The notes below the pieces were generated by a model. It saw nothing but the letters and a program-made list of their open reading frames with translations, was not told where the DNA came from and did not search any database. From contig NZ_CP114015.1 of the NCBI RefSeq assembly GCF_026898095.1, positions 806,001 to 870,000 on the forward strand: 64,000 bases of DNA, in the 5' to 3' direction. Of the stretch, positions 10,151-42,124 are shown one piece after another (positions within the stretch are counted from its first letter, which is position 1; each line of letters opens with the position of its first letter). Made by a program: the position numbers and the translations under genes. The DNA is from Arthrobacter sp. ATA002 (GTDB lineage Bacteria > Actinomycetota > Actinomycetes > Actinomycetales > Micrococcaceae).

Positions 10151-11912
10151 GTGACCGGATCCCAGCATGACTCCAGCCTGTCCTCGTCCGCCCACTCTGC
10201 CCACTCTGCCGGCTCTCCGGAGCCGGAAGCAGGAAACAACCTCAGCTCCCTGCAGGCCGCACGCTCCGCCGTCTCTGCGCTGACCGCGGCAGGGGTGACC
10301 GACGTCGTGATCTCCCCGGGATCGCGCAGCGCCCCGCTGGCCTACGCACTGGCGGAAGCCGAAGCGCAGGGCCGGGTGACGGTGCACGTGCGGATCGATG
10401 AACGGGTTGCCGGCTTCACCGCCCTGGGCCTGGCCCGCGGCGGACACCGCCCGGCCGCCGTCGTCACCACCTCCGGCACCGCCGTCGGCGAGCTGATGCC
10501 GGCGGTAATGGAAGCCCACCACGCCGGCGTGCCGCTGGTGGTGCTCTCCGCCGACCGGCCCGCGGAACTGCACGGCACCGGCGCGAACCAGGCCACCGTG
10601 CAGCCCGGCATCTTCGCCGGATTTCCGGCTGCCACCGCCGACGTCCGTGCCGGGGACGATCCCGCCGGAGCCATCAGCGCCGCCTTCGACGAGGTCAGCA
10701 CCGGCAACCCGGTGGGACCGATCCACATCAACCTGCAGTTCCGCGACCCGCTGATCCCGCAGGACACCGATGAGGCGGAACTGCCCGCATCGGAGCCGGC
10801 CGCCGTGGATAGTACGGAGCTGCCGGCTGAACCCGTTGCTGCCGGCGACGAAGCCGCAGTGCTCGCCAAGCACTCCGGCACCCGCCGTGCCGTCGTCATT
10901 GCGGGCGACGGGGCCGGTGAGATTGCCGCACTGTTTGCCCGCCGCGCGGGACTGCCGCTGCTGGCCGAACCGTCCTCGAACGCCCGCTTCGGCCCGAATG
11001 CGATCGGCGCCTACCGGCTGCTGCTGGAGGAACTGGGTTCCGAGATCGAGCGCGTTGTGGTTTTCGGCCGGCCCACCCTGTCCCGGCCGGTCGCCGGACT
11101 GCTCGCCCGCGGGGACGTGGAAAAGGCAATCTATGTGCCGCGCCCGGTCAACTGGTTCACCGCCGGACGCCGCCCCGAAACCATCATCACCGACCTGGCC
11201 GGGTTGTTTGACTTTGCCGGCGAAGGCACCCCGGGCTGGCTCGAGCGCTGGCAAACCGCCTCCGCCGCGGCACTGGCAGCAGTGTCCTCCCTGATCGACG
11301 GCCAGAGCGAACTGAACGGGCTGCACGTCGCGGAGCTGGTCTGGGACCACACCGACGGAAACCTGGTGCTCGGCTCCTCCAACCCGATCCGCGACCTGGA
11401 CCTGGTGGCCGCCCCGGACTGGCATCCGCTGGACGTTTACGCCAACCGCGGACTGGCCGGCATTGACGGAACCATTGCCACCGCCGCCGGCATAGCCCTG
11501 GCCAACGGCATCCCCACCCGCGTGCTGCTGGGCGACCTCACCTTCCTGCACGACGCCGGCGCCCTCCTTGGGCCCCGGCGAACCGGAGCCCGACCTGCAG
11601 CTTGTGGTGCTGAACGACGGCGGCGGCGGCATCTTCTCCACCCTCGAGCACGGAGCGCTGGGGGAGCGGACGGAATACACCGCCGTCGTCGAGCGCTTTT
11701 TCGGCACCCCGCACACGGTGGACGTGTCGGCGCTGGCCGCAGCCTACGGAGTGCCGCACCGGCTGGTCCGCACGGCGGATGAGCTCGACGCCGCACTGGA
11801 CGCCCCGGTGGCCGGCCGTTCCATTATTGAGGCTCGGGTGCACAGGGCATCGTTGCGGGAACTGCACGCCCGGGTGCGGGACGCGGTGCGGGGCGTGTTG
11901 TCCGCTCGTTGA
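10151..11912 (+). CDS. menD: 2-succinyl-5-enolpyruvyl-6-hydroxy-3-cyclohexene-1-carboxylate synthase (frame broken once)
   Basis: MenD is the ThDP-dependent enzyme that adds a 2-oxoglutarate-derived succinyl group to isochorismate in menaquinone synthesis. The repaired protein has about 586 residues. Typical blocks are VISPGSRSAPLAYAL near residue 55, DERVAGFTALGLARG, TSGTAVGELMPAVMEA, SADRPAELHGTGANQ, and at the C-terminus VVLNDGGGGIFSTLEHG, the cofactor motif. The frame changes by plus one at about 11567 (CTCCTTGGG): removing one T gives the continuous GALLGPGEPEPDLQ. The GTG start is preceded by GGAGG. The other men genes (menF, menG) lie 4-6 kb downstream, separated by an ABC transporter. 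Confidence 0.93.
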
Positions 11913-36321: not shown

Positions 36322-37703
36322 GTGCACAATTCGGAACATCTTCTACCTCCGCAGTGTTCCGCGGACGGACTCCAGCGCGCCGCCCGCCGGGCGCATGAAG
36401 GCCTGGGCACCGCTGATGGGTTCCAGCGCTGGCTGAGGGCTCCGGTCCGGGATTCCTGGCAGCGGTCGCTGCGCCACCACACGGATCCGGACAAGGCGGT
36501 GCCGAAACTCGTCTTCACTGGTTCGGAGCTCGAGGACTACCGGCGGGCACATCCCCTTTCGGCCGTCATGCCCGTCATTCGGCAGCTGCTGGTGCGCCCG
36601 GTTGCGGACAGCGGCCTGCTGGTGGCCGTGGGCGATGAGCTGGGCAGGCTGCTCTGGGTGGAGGGCGACGGCGAACTCAGCCGCCGGGCCGAGGGCATGC
36701 TCTTTATCCCCGGAACGGACTGGTCCGAGCAATCCATCGGCACGAGCGCCCCCGGCACGGCGCTGGCCTCCGGGAACAGCATCCAGATCGCCGGGGCGGA
36801 ACATTTCAGCAGGCAGGTCCATTCCTGGAGCTGCACCGCGGTTCCGCTGCGCGATCCGGAGACCGGGTCAGTCCTGGGCGTGGTCGATATCACCGGCCGG
36901 GACCACGCGGTGGCTGAACACGCGCTGGCGCTGGTCGAGGCCACGGTCGCGGCCGCGCAAGCGCAGCTGCGGGTGGAACGGCTTCAGCAAGCGGACAGCG
37001 CCGGGCGGCGGCCGGCCGGAATACCACCCCTGCGTCCTGCGCGCCGCCGGCGCGCCCTGCCCGCAGAAACACCGGACAGCCTGCAGATCCTGGGCCGGGA
37101 TTCAGCCGTGGTGACGGTGGGCGGCCGGTCCGCTGCCCTGAGCATCCGGCATTCCGAGTTGCTCACCCTCCTCGCACTGCAGAGTTGCTCACCCTCCTCG
37201 CACTGCACCCTGAAGGGCTCACCGCCGACGAACTCTCCGTCATGGTGTATCCCGAAAGCGCGTCGGTCAGCACCGTCCGCGCCGAGATGCTCCGGCTGCG
37301 GAACATGCTCGCCAAGCACAGCGAGGGCAGGCCGGAGCCGGCCCTGGTGCCGCAGTCCCGCCCCTACCGGCTGCCGCACGGACTGGCCGTCGATGCCCGG
37401 CAGGTGCTCGGCTACCTGGAGTGCGGGGCATACCGGCCGGCCCTGGACCTGTACCGCGGAGCCGTGCTGCCCCGCTCCGAAGCCCCGGCCATCGCCGCCC
37501 TGCGCAACGAAGTCAGCACCGTGCTGCGGGAAGCGGTGCTGTCGGACGCCGGCTCCGCCGTCCTGCTGGCGTACCTGTCCCTGGCGGAGGCCCGGAACGA
37601 CGTCGAGGCCTGGTCCCTGGCCCTGCGGCTGCTGCCGCTGCGCTCACCCCGGCGGGCGGCCGTGGTGGCCCGGCTGGAGCGGTTGGAGAAGGAGCTGGGC
37701 TAG
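36322..37703 (+). CDS. GAF-domain transcriptional regulator (broken by a 26-bp tandem duplication)
   Basis: A probable activator of the alcohol/aldehyde genes downstream, about 451 residues once one duplicate copy is removed. The N-terminus (RDSWQRSLRHHTDPD) and GAF region (LLVAVGDELGRLLWVEGD, MLFIPGTDWSEQSIGTSAPG, HSWSCTAVPLRDPETGSVLGVVDITG) match AcoR-like sensors; no AAA+ domain follows. Instead a C-terminal winged-helix-like part contains LLTLLALHPEGLTADELSVMVYP and VSTVRAEMLRLRNML. A perfect 26-bp repeat at 37156-37181 and 37182-37207 shifts the frame at the start of this DNA-binding part. GTG start. Confidence 0.8.
37156..37207 (+). repeat. Perfect 26-bp tandem duplication inside the GAF regulator gene
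   Basis: Two identical adjacent 26-bp copies (37156-37181, 37182-37207). The length is not a multiple of three, so the duplication destroys the frame; a single copy restores an uninterrupted protein. Confidence 0.95.
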
Positions 37704-37780
37704 GCTCCGTCCGGGATGCGGCCGGCCGGTGGATGGACCCGGTGCCGGGGGTCTGCGTCGGGCCGGAGCACGGGAGCCAA

Positions 37781-37797
37781 TGCAACCTTGGTGCAAC
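37781..37797 (+). promoter_or_regulatory. Direct repeat upstream of the aldehyde dehydrogenase gene
   Basis: TGCAAC occurs twice, 11 bp apart (about one helical turn), 60-76 bases before the ATG at 37857. It is a candidate site for the adjacent GAF regulator. Confidence 0.35.
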
Positions 37798-37856
37798 GTG
37801 CGGTTCCGTAACCTCGGTACGTCAGACACCGACGTCGTCACCGCCAAGGAGCAGAT

Positions 37857-39380
37857 ATGACCGTATATGCGCAGCCCGGCACCGAGGGATCCAAGCTGTC
37901 CTTCAAGCCCCGTTACGAAAACTGGATCGGCGGGGAATGGGTGCCGCCGGTCAAGGGCGGCTACTTCGAAAACGTATCCCCGGTGACCGGAAAGGTATTC
38001 TGTGAGGTAGCCCGCGGCACCTCCGAGGACATCGATCTGGCGCTGGACGCAGCCCACAAGGCAGCGCCGGCCTGGGGCAAGACCTCCGTGGCGGAGCGGG
38101 CGCAGGTCCTGAACCGGATTGCCGACCGGATCGAGGAAAACCTGGAGCTGCTGGCCGTCGCCGAAACCTGGGACAACGGCAAGCCGGTCCGCGAGTCCCT
38201 GGCCGCCGACATGCCACTGGCCGTGGACCACTTCCGGTACTTCGCCGGGGCCGTCCGTGCCCAGGAAGGCTCCCTGTCCCAGATCGACGACGACACCACC
38301 GCCTATCACTTCCACGAGCCACTGGGCGTTGTGGGCCAGATCATTCCCTGGAACTTTCCCATCCTCATGGCCGTATGGAAGCTCGCCCCGGCGCTTGCGG
38401 CCGGCAACGCCATTGTCCTGAAGCCGGCCGAGCAGACCCCGGCCTCGATCATGGTGCTGATGGAACTCATCGCCGACATCCTGCCCGCCGGGGTGCTGAA
38501 CGTGGTCAACGGATTCGGCGTGGAAGCCGGAAAGCCGCTGGCCTCATCCCCGCGGATCCGCAAGATCGCCTTCACCGGTGAAACCACCACCGGGCGGCTG
38601 ATTATGCAGTACGCCTCCCAGAACCTGATCCCGGTCACCCTGGAGCTGGGCGGCAAGAGCCCGAACATCTTCTTCGCCGACGTCGCGCAGGAAAACGACG
38701 CGTTCTACGACAAGGCGCTGGAAGGCTTCAATATGTTCGCCCTGAACCAGGGCGAAGTGTGCACCTGCCCCTCGCGTGCGCTCATCCAGGACTCCTTCTA
38801 CGACAGCTTCATGGCGGACGCGCTGGCCCGCACCGCGCAGATGGTCCAGGGCAACCCGCTGGACACCAACACCATGGTGGGTGCCCAGGCCTCCAACGAC
38901 CAGCTGGAAAAGATCCTGTCCTACATGGACATTGCCCACCAGGAAGGCGCCAAGGTGCTCACCGGCGGCGAGCGGCTGATGCTCGACGGCGACCTCGCCG
39001 GCGGCTTCTATGTGAAGCCCACCGTCTTTGAAGGCACCAACAACATGCGCATCTTCCAGGAGGAGATCTTCGGCCCGGTGGTTTCCGTGACCCGCTTCTC
39101 GGACTACGGTGAAGCCCTGGCCATCGCCAACGACACCCTCTACGGACTCGGTGCCGGGGTATGGTCCCGCAACGGCAACACCGCCTACCGTGCCGGCAGG
39201 GACATCCAAGCCGGCCGGGTCTGGGTGAACAATTACCACGCCTACCCCGCGCATGCAGCGTTCGGCGGCTACAAGTCCTCCGGGATCGGCCGGGAAAACC
39301 ACGCCATGATGCTGGACCACTACCAGCAGACCAAGAACCTGCTGGTCAGCTACGCCGAAAACAAGCAGGGCTTCTTCTAA
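37857..39380 (+). CDS. Aldehyde dehydrogenase, ExaC/AcoD (acetaldehyde-oxidising) type
   Basis: An NAD-dependent aldehyde dehydrogenase of 507 residues. It begins [29 protein letters not shown], has [22 protein letters not shown], catalytic Glu in [12 protein letters not shown] and the catalytic Cys in [14 protein letters not shown] (near 301). The [11 protein letters not shown] block and the end [19 protein letters not shown] are characteristic of the ExaC/AcoD group acting on acetaldehyde and similar aldehydes. AAGGAG lies upstream of the ATG. It stands with a Zn alcohol dehydrogenase and DUF779 gene, a common set for ethanol oxidation. Confidence 0.93.
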
Positions 39381-39441: not shown

Positions 39442-40461
39442 ATGGCGAGCATGCAAGCAGCAGTAGTGAACCACCTCGGTGAAGGCCTCTCCGTAGAGGA
39501 CGTGGCGGTGCTGGAACCCGGGCCGGGGCAGGTGCTCGTCAAACTGGTCGCCACCGGCGTGTGCCATACGGACCTGCATGCCGCGGACGGCGACTGGCCG
39601 GTCAAGCCGACTCCGCCGTTCATCCCCGGCCACGAGGGGGTTGGCGAGGTAGTGCAGGCCGGTGACGGCGTCACCGACCTGCAACCCGGCGACATGGTGG
39701 GCAATGCCTGGCTCGCCTACGCGTGCGGCGTCTGCGAGTACTGCCGGACCGGTTGGGAAACCCTGTGCGAGGACCAGAAGAACAGCGGCTACTCGGTGGA
39801 CGGATCCTTCGGCCAGTACATGCTGGTGGATGCCCGCTTCGCGGCCCGCATCCCCGAAGGCGCCGATCCGCAGGAGATCGCCCCGGTCCTTTGCGCCGGT
39901 GTCACGGTCTACAAGGGGCTGAAGGTGAGCGGGGCCCGTCCCGGGCAGTGGGTGGTCATCTCCGGTATCGGCGGACTGGGGCACGTGGCCGTGCAGTACG
40001 CCAAGGCCATGGGTCTGCGGGTGGCGGCAGTGGACATCGCTGACGACAAGCTGGAACTGGCGAAGAAGTACGGGGCCGAACTGCTGGTCAACGCCCGCAG
40101 CGAGGACCCGGCCCAAGCGATCCAGGACAAGGTGGGCGGCGCACATGCGGTTCTGGTAACCGCCGTCCACCCGGAGGCCTTCGGCCAGGCGATCGGGATG
40201 GCCCGGCGCGGCGGAACCATCGTCTTCGTCGGATTGCCGCCGGGTGATTTCCCAGCACCGATTTTCGATATCGTCCTGAAGGGCCTCACCATCAGGGGTT
40301 CGATTGTGGGGACCCGGCAGGATCTGGCGGAAGCGATCGATTTCTATGACCGCGGACTGATACATCCCAACATCACGACCCGAAACCTGGAGGAGATCAA
40401 CGACATCATGAACGAGCTCAGGGAGGGCCGCGTGGACGGCCGGGTGGTGATCGGATACTGA
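39442..40461 (+). CDS. Zinc-dependent alcohol dehydrogenase, AdhP/AdhA type
   Basis: A 339-residue medium-chain dehydrogenase. Catalytic zinc ligands: Cys41 in GVCHTDLHAADGDW and His64/Glu65 in GHEGVGEV. Structural zinc: four Cys in CGVCEYCRTGWETLC (about 95-109). NAD site: ISGIGGLGHVAVQYAKAMG. It follows the aldehyde dehydrogenase by 61 bases and its stop overlaps the DUF779 start (TGATG). The pair would convert ethanol or similar primary alcohols to the acid through the aldehyde. Confidence 0.93.
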   Translation: MASMQAAVVNHLGEGLSVEDVAVLEPGPGQVLVKLVATGVCHTDLHAADGDWPVKPTPPFIPGHEGVGEVVQAGDGVTDLQPGDMVGNAWLAYACGVCEYCRTGWETLCEDQKNSGYSVDGSFGQYMLVDARFAARIPEGADPQEIAPVLCAGVTVYKGLKVSGARPGQWVVISGIGGLGHVAVQYAKAMGLRVAAVDIADDKLELAKKYGAELLVNARSEDPAQAIQDKVGGAHAVLVTAVHPEAFGQAIGMARRGGTIVFVGLPPGDFPAPIFDIVLKGLTIRGSIVGTRQDLAEAIDFYDRGLIHPNITTRNLEEINDIMNELREGRVDGRVVIGY

Positions 40462-40880
40462 TGGGTACGCCGCCTGAGTTAAGTGCCGCCGGGGCATCAG
40501 GACTGGATGCCGCTGTCACGCTGCCAGGGGAGAACTACTCCCGGGTGGCGCTGACGCCCGCAGCGCAGGAACTGCTTCTGCAGCTGCGCGAACAGCACGG
40601 TCCGCTGATGTTCCACCAGTCGGGGGGATGCTGTGACGGTTCTTCGCCCATGTGCTATCCGGCCGGCGATTTCATCACCTCCGACGCCGACGTGCTGCTG
40701 GGAACCTTCGAGCTGGCGCCGGGGGAGGCCCTGGACTTCTGGATGTCCGCGGAACAGTTCGAATACTGGAAGCACACGCATTTGACGGTGGATGTGGTCC
40801 CGGGGCGGGGCAGCGGATTCTCGGTGGAGGCGCCGGAAGGCAAACGCTTCCTGATCCGTTCCCGGCTGATGGCCGGCTGA
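40461..40880 (+). CDS. DUF779 family protein
   Basis: A 139-residue protein with the family core LREQHGPLMFHQSGGCCDGSSPMCYP and DVLLGTFE near residues 37-80, and W.S.EQFEYWKHTHLTVDVVPGRGSGFSVEAPEGKRFLIRSRL at the end. The Cys-rich GGCCDGSSPMC could bind metal. Translationally coupled to the alcohol dehydrogenase. DUF779 genes are widely found beside ExaC/AcoD aldehyde dehydrogenases, which is the context here; its biochemical role is unknown. Confidence 0.88.
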   Translation: MGTPPELSAAGASGLDAAVTLPGENYSRVALTPAAQELLLQLREQHGPLMFHQSGGCCDGSSPMCYPAGDFITSDADVLLGTFELAPGEALDFWMSAEQFEYWKHTHLTVDVVPGRGSGFSVEAPEGKRFLIRSRLMAG

Positions 40881-42047: not shown

Positions 42048-42124
42048 CCGGCTGCCGCCGTCGTGCGGCACCGGCTGCCGCCGTCGTGCGGCACCGGCGG
42101 GGCGCCGGCCCGCACGACGGCGGC
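42048..42124 (+). repeat. Tandem 23-bp repeat forming alternative hairpins after DUF4193
   Basis: A 23-bp unit occurs twice in tandem (42048-42070, 42071-42093). The sequence CCGCACGACGGCGGC at 42110-42124 is complementary to part of each copy, so either copy can form the stem. It probably ends DUF4193 transcription. Confidence 0.7.

Follow-up and report, generated by a model that had tools for sequence, protein, structure and literature searches.

An exact 26-bp repeat in a regulator gene of Arthrobacter sp. ATA002: more likely an artefact of sequencing or a one-off mutation than a switch

In the assembly of Arthrobacter sp. ATA002, a regulator gene beside alcohol-oxidation genes contains an exact 26-bp tandem duplication that breaks its reading frame. 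Analysis of the repeat, of the same gene in relatives and of the assembly that carries it indicates that a sequencing artefact or a one-off mutation is more likely than a genetic switch. The letters were read correctly, but the sequence is untrustworthy at this level without reads. We place assembly error just ahead of a real one-off loss-of-function duplication, with a switch far behind; these weights are judgements, not computed values. Coordinates refer to the window, a stretch of 64,000 nucleotides (contig NZ_CP114015.1, positions 806,001 to 870,000 of the forward strand), unless another locus is named.

The 26-bp duplication and the frames of the regulator

The regulator gene spans positions 36322-37703. 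Repeat analysis of 37156-37207 returned a period of 26, 2.0 copies and a 100% match, confirming the two exact copies described in the sequence-only reading. In 100 Markov-1 simulations of the window (66% G+C), the longest exact tandem duplication had a period of only 14, which places the 26-bp repeat beyond chance. The matching run is exactly 26, the same as the period, and the junction is therefore without microhomology. Because 26 mod 3 is 2, the duplication shifts the regulator frame; the remainder of the gene contains no further frame change. One aligner output splits the 26-base insertion into 14 bases and a multiple of three. Another exact tandem duplication, of 23 bp and 2.2 copies, occupies 42048-42098 of the window and is intergenic, upstream of the TerC gene.

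The N frame, opening at 36322, departs from the conserved protein after ...RHSELLTLLALQ and continues out of frame to 37860. Its last conserved residues before the break are ...SIRHSELLTLLALQ, and the conserved C part goes on in the other frame to 37703. The N part is similar to the dihydroxyacetone regulator DhaR (NCBIfam NF008485, 59.9 bits, far under the cut-off of 551), and its identity as a GAF sensor is supported by the Pfam and NCBIfam matches together with the model of the intact orthologue. In that model, the duplicated codons fall in helix 270-281 (A. gandavensis numbering), the first helix of the winged helix, which puts the break inside the DNA-binding domain and not between domains. 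The location first proposed, at the junction of the GAF sensor and the DNA-binding part, was thus wrong as judged from the model. The most upstream start codon of the C frame is a TTG within copy 2, with no clear ribosome-binding site upstream by eye. Since this codon lies inside the first helix of the winged helix, a functional split into two proteins is unlikely.

For the N half, comparison with three relatives gave dN/dS values of 0.15-0.21, and for the C half 0.17-0.23; values between pairs of intact relatives were 0.11-0.19. The two halves are both under purifying selection. As these values are near those of the intact pairs, any real break must be very recent, and an old pseudogene is ruled out. 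The earlier statement that the duplication inactivates the regulator is conditional: the gene is broken if the sequence is correct.

Table 1. Coordinates of the regulator, its duplication, the neighbouring genes and the loci used for comparison
Feature	Coordinates	Strand	Evidence or remark
Copy 1 of the exact 26-bp tandem duplication	37156..37181	+	Repeat analysis
Copy 2 of the exact 26-bp tandem duplication	37182..37207	+	Missing from all 28 other genus genomes
Regulator N part (GAF sensor), open frame	36322..37860	+	PF01590, E 3.6e-10; out of frame past the duplication
Regulator C part (winged helix and helical domain), frame	37185..37703	+	Frame translation
Acetaldehyde dehydrogenase, ExaC type, frame intact	37857..39380	+	NF050026, 965.7 bits, cut-off 900
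Zinc alcohol dehydrogenase, AdhP type, frame intact	39442..40461	+	NF006940, 375.2 bits, cut-off 344
DUF779 protein, frame intact	40461..40880	+	PF05610, E 1.9e-46
Intact regulator orthologue	L031:5001-6338		
rRNA operon loci of this genome	G000:C1		L187, L192, L197, L202, L207, L212, L217, L222, L227, L232, L237, L242

The regulator and its neighbours in relatives

The regulator gene is present in all 28 other genomes of the genus, with both halves in one open frame and a single copy at the site. Both halves are also held by 49 of 52 named loci, in one frame in all 49; in the other three only the N part is matched, at 31-36% identity or less. Eight of these 49 come from the same genomes as genus members, which gives 69 distinct relatives (28 + 49 - 8). 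Counted by locus, the two halves share one frame in 78/78 loci of relatives, and this frame is that of the one-copy version, in agreement with the proposal that one copy gives a continuous protein. In the 78 loci, the region reaching from 120 bases upstream of the site to 140 bases downstream contained no exact tandem repeat of at least 10 bp; a 9-bp frame-keeping tandem repeat near the site occurs in four of them, from two genomes.

A profile scan matched the regulator in 150 of 197 Micrococcaceae genomes, the window's own genome included, where the best match ends at position 281 of a 440-position profile. At least eight of the Micrococcaceae matches listed have one stop inside the match, and several are partial (G056, G062, G107, G116, G197 and others). 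A record titled Vibrio cholerae strain 35D (WNZI01000062.1, L044) encodes a regulator of Arthrobacter type that shares 60% identity with the N part in the window; this record looks contaminated or mislabelled.

Regarding the neighbourhood, the window carries the module of aldehyde and alcohol dehydrogenase genes that had been claimed to adjoin the regulator, with ExaC-type, AdhP-type and DUF779 genes (Table 1). Among the 49 named loci with both halves, exaC lies downstream of the regulator on the same strand in 44, at a distance of 59-2429 bp, and four of the five loci without it end within 1.9 kb of the regulator gene. This synteny suggests that the regulator controls the adjacent exaC-adhP-DUF779 genes. 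In the window 153 bp separate the regulator from exaC; seven other loci of the genus have spacings of about 100-140 bp, and named loci of the A. gandavensis group (L031-L034, L036, L038, L040 and L041) have about 1.86-1.95 kb.

Fold and family of the intact orthologue

SARP-type regulators are defined by an OmpR-type winged helix followed by a BTAD-like helical domain, and DhaR/AcoR-type activators include a sigma-54 AAA+ domain and a Fis-type HTH. AfsR and EmbR are SARP-type regulators. The structure of the intact A. gandavensis protein was modelled from 38 orthologues, with a mean pLDDT of 90 and a pTM of only 0.59, so the relative placing of its domains is uncertain. Model residues 39-241 resemble DhaR(N) (PDB 4lrx, 4lry, 4lrz; Z 22.9, rmsd 2.9, 198 aligned). 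The remainder resembles AfsR over residues 238-446 (PDB 8hvr, 8k60; Z 14.4, rmsd 4.0, 195 aligned) and EmbR over residues 246-446 (PDB 2fez; Z 12.3, rmsd 4.1, 195 aligned).

The winged helix and BTAD-like domain are recognised in intact relatives by fold only. At the sequence level, weak Trans_reg_C matches were obtained in 31 of 38 members, and the BTAD family was not among the Pfam families listed for the 38 members scanned. An N-terminal GAF sensor like that of DhaR is found in intact relatives; neither a sigma-54 AAA+ domain nor a Fis-type HTH was among the seven Pfam families listed (E up to 1, 38 members). In the model, the C half resembles AfsR rather than the sigma-54 AAA+/Fis-type HTH part.

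As modelled, the intact regulator unites a DhaR-type GAF sensor and a SARP-type output in one protein. It shares the N-terminal sensor with DhaR but has an AfsR-like output half, with no Pfam AAA+ domain listed. With AfsR and EmbR it shares the winged-helix/helical output, which is joined here to a DhaR-like sensor. Among the papers listed on SARP with GAF and BTAD, none of which contained the phrase 'GAF domain', and on GAF-type acetaldehyde-dehydrogenase regulators in Arthrobacter, none concerned a DhaR-sensor/SARP-output combination. Those listed on these Arthrobacter regulators, on microhomology duplications and on DUF779 with GAF did not concern this locus.

Frame breaks and rRNA indels in the assembly

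A single 3.90-Mb contig makes up the genome, with a completeness of 94.24 against 99-100 in the 28 sister genomes. Frame breaks were determined by comparing proteins of the relative G003 with this assembly over a largely collinear 400-kb stretch. Of 240 G003 genes, 53 are split between frames here, and in 43 of these the break is in the middle 80% of the protein; within the window, 10 of 47 tested genes are frame-broken. Among the 34 genes with a single frame-changing gap, 28 show a 1-base deletion, four a 2-base deletion and one a 1-base insertion, and the last is the gene with the 26-bp duplication.

The excess of frame breaks rests on a third-genome control restricted to proteins found in both genomes. 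With G002 proteins, 28/107 were broken here vs 2/107 in G003, and with G019 proteins 20/91 vs 3/91. The counts for all tested proteins were 28/108 here and 5/130 in G003 for G002, and 21/98 and 3/100 for G019. The excess does not rest on the reverse test, in which 27/239 genes of this assembly were flagged against G003, many of them, by eye, the same loci seen from the broken side.

Twenty of the broken genes were checked against NCBIfam. The break falls inside the family match in TerC/Alx (about 190 of 394), GlgX (about 580 of 729), formaldehyde dehydrogenase (71 of 405) and thiolase (about 235 of 420). In rpoA, topA and menD, which are the best known of the essential genes affected, and in polyphosphate kinase, it lies near an end or outside the family match (rpoA, about 314 of 338; topA, past residue 18; menD, about 467 of 579; polyphosphate kinase, past residue 22), so that these four are no proof of error. 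Nine conserved window genes other than the regulator are frame-broken (near 11569, 17962, 23724, 28385, 30759, 42880, 50480, 55825 and 61585), and in each of them the break coincides with a gap of 1-2 bases compared with G003. They include a menD-like gene, an APC-type transporter (by eye), TerC/Alx and formaldehyde dehydrogenase, and these nine breaks are most likely assembly errors. The duplication had been called unlike the other breaks: its type is indeed unusual, but it shares the window with these nine further broken genes.

The six rRNA sets of one genome are expected to be nearly identical. Here, five of the six 23S copies differ from their own majority by 4, 8, 8, 9 and 14 indels, the copy L197, whose locus is at the contig start, being left out of the counts; indels were also found in four of six 16S copies. 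The 36 copies of G003, G007 and G019 (six sets each; the seventh set of G019 is not in the count) contain none, so that three of four sister genomes are free of rRNA indels, and G008 has them in four of six 23S copies and one of six 16S copies. Such disagreement within one genome is a simple quality alarm for an assembly. Together, the frame breaks and the rRNA indels look like an incompletely corrected assembly. The alternative raised at the outset, that the repeat is an assembly artefact, gains weight from this richness in indels.

Tandem duplications elsewhere in the genome

Exact tandem duplications with a period of at least 12 number 20 in 800 kb of this genome vs 26 in 800 kb of G003, and a pervasive duplication-type assembly error is thus unsupported. 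Junctions without microhomology occur in five of the 20 duplications here, the 26-bp one included, and in four of the 26 in G003. Collinear flanks are missing for six of the 20 and nine of the 26. The 26-bp repeat is the sole frame-changing duplication with exactly one G003 copy between collinear flanks (20 sampled, six uncomparable). A 15-bp frame-keeping duplication of this genome (L142, segment position 197894) has exactly one copy in G003, and G003 has a 16-bp frame-changing duplication of its own (275433), inside a selected open frame near its start. Such duplications are therefore not confined to this assembly.

Error, mutation or switch

The leading explanation, to which we assign an even chance, is that the second copy is an assembly error that would not be present in the chromosome. 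A local consensus or joining error would have added copy 2 to a single-contig genome that is rich in indels and incompletely corrected. In that case the regulator of the organism itself would be ordinary and intact, like that of its relatives, with a DhaR-type GAF sensor and a SARP-type winged helix that would act on the adjacent exaC-adhP-DUF779 genes. The assembly is indel-rich, the gene is unduplicated and in one frame in all relatives checked, and purifying selection acts on both halves; from this we infer that this particular 26-bp copy may be an error. Frame breaks far above those of sister genomes, and rRNA copies differing by indels within one genome, mark an error-prone assembly, but a 26-base insertion is not of its predominant error type, 1-2 base deletions (32 of 34 single-gap genes). 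The junction without microhomology would be expected if two overlapping ends had been laid side by side, but it is not diagnostic, as it occurs in duplications of both this genome and G003. Also counting against an error are the lack of any excess of exact duplications and the few rRNA indels of G008. Errors of tens to hundreds of bp are described in most long-read bacterial assemblies (Trycycler, PMC8442456), and Kastor (PMC12007338) ignores candidate indels above two bases as likelier genome-specific real variants. By analogy with the gene-fragmenting indel errors treated in both papers, the excess of 1-2 base deletions and the lower completeness would fit long-read errors, but an exact 26-bp duplication is larger than the usual error. 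The indel-rich assembly explains the duplication only in part.

A little under an even chance goes to a real, very recent spontaneous duplication that would knock out the regulator in this isolate, perhaps arising in culture, and would leave a GAF half with a nonsense tail and a DNA-binding half without a good start and with part of its first helix missing. The copy is exact, its type is unlike the usual errors of the assembly, frame changes are absent from the rest of the gene, and the dN/dS of both halves (0.15-0.23 vs 0.11-0.19 in intact pairs) would make the break recent. An exact duplication with one copy in relatives and no decay is the picture of a spontaneous event, and an assembly error would look identical. 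A study of Xenorhabdus lrp (PMC6786866) offers a possible analogy, with three spontaneous tandem duplications of 26-116 bp in cultures, among mutations judged not to be phase variation. The likeness is a duplication of this size inside a regulator gene; the difference is that many mutants were sequenced there, and the present case is known from one assembly only, with a high frame-break rate. Nor is there another frame-changing duplication with one copy in the relative among the 20 of the 800 kb (six without collinear flanks). Very improbable next to both is the reversible ON/OFF switch of the sequence-only reading, in which slippage would restore the frame in some cells and toggle the aldehyde/alcohol dehydrogenase genes. 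The geometry permits it, the relatives' frame being the one-copy frame, and pneumococcal capsule-gene duplications have been called phase variation (Waite et al. 2001, 2003, cited in PMC4022640). As far as these citations go, the possible likeness is a losable duplication inside a coding gene, but their titles report phase variation, whereas the regulator here shows neither alternation nor recurrence. A phase-variable locus would show the repeat in at least two lineages, or broken alleles that recur; the 78 loci from 69 distinct relatives are all in one frame, with no tandem repeat of at least 10 bp near the site, and the claim of a switch is unsupported. In the relatives checked this repeat is missing and the frame is unbroken; they thus give no sign of an evolved switch, which we reject. 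The passages on reversion in the Xenorhabdus lrp study report none at the genetic level in cultures of eight isolates with distinct lrp mutations, without singling out the duplications (PMC6786866). Fainter still is the reading that the duplication is real, polymorphic in the lineage and losable, some cells regaining the DhaR-sensor/SARP-output activator as a contingency switch in its infancy.

Implications

An indel-rich assembly can mimic pseudogenes and switches: here, roughly a fifth of the genes tested would be called broken, and reads are required before any biology is inferred from the frame breaks of this genome. A real duplication would be one more example of a known route to regulator loss; were it polymorphic, ethanol/acetaldehyde oxidation would be regained along with the activator. 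The intact regulator is worth attention in its own right, being widespread in Micrococcaceae and combining, according to the model, a DhaR-like sensor with a SARP-like output beside an acetaldehyde dehydrogenase gene.
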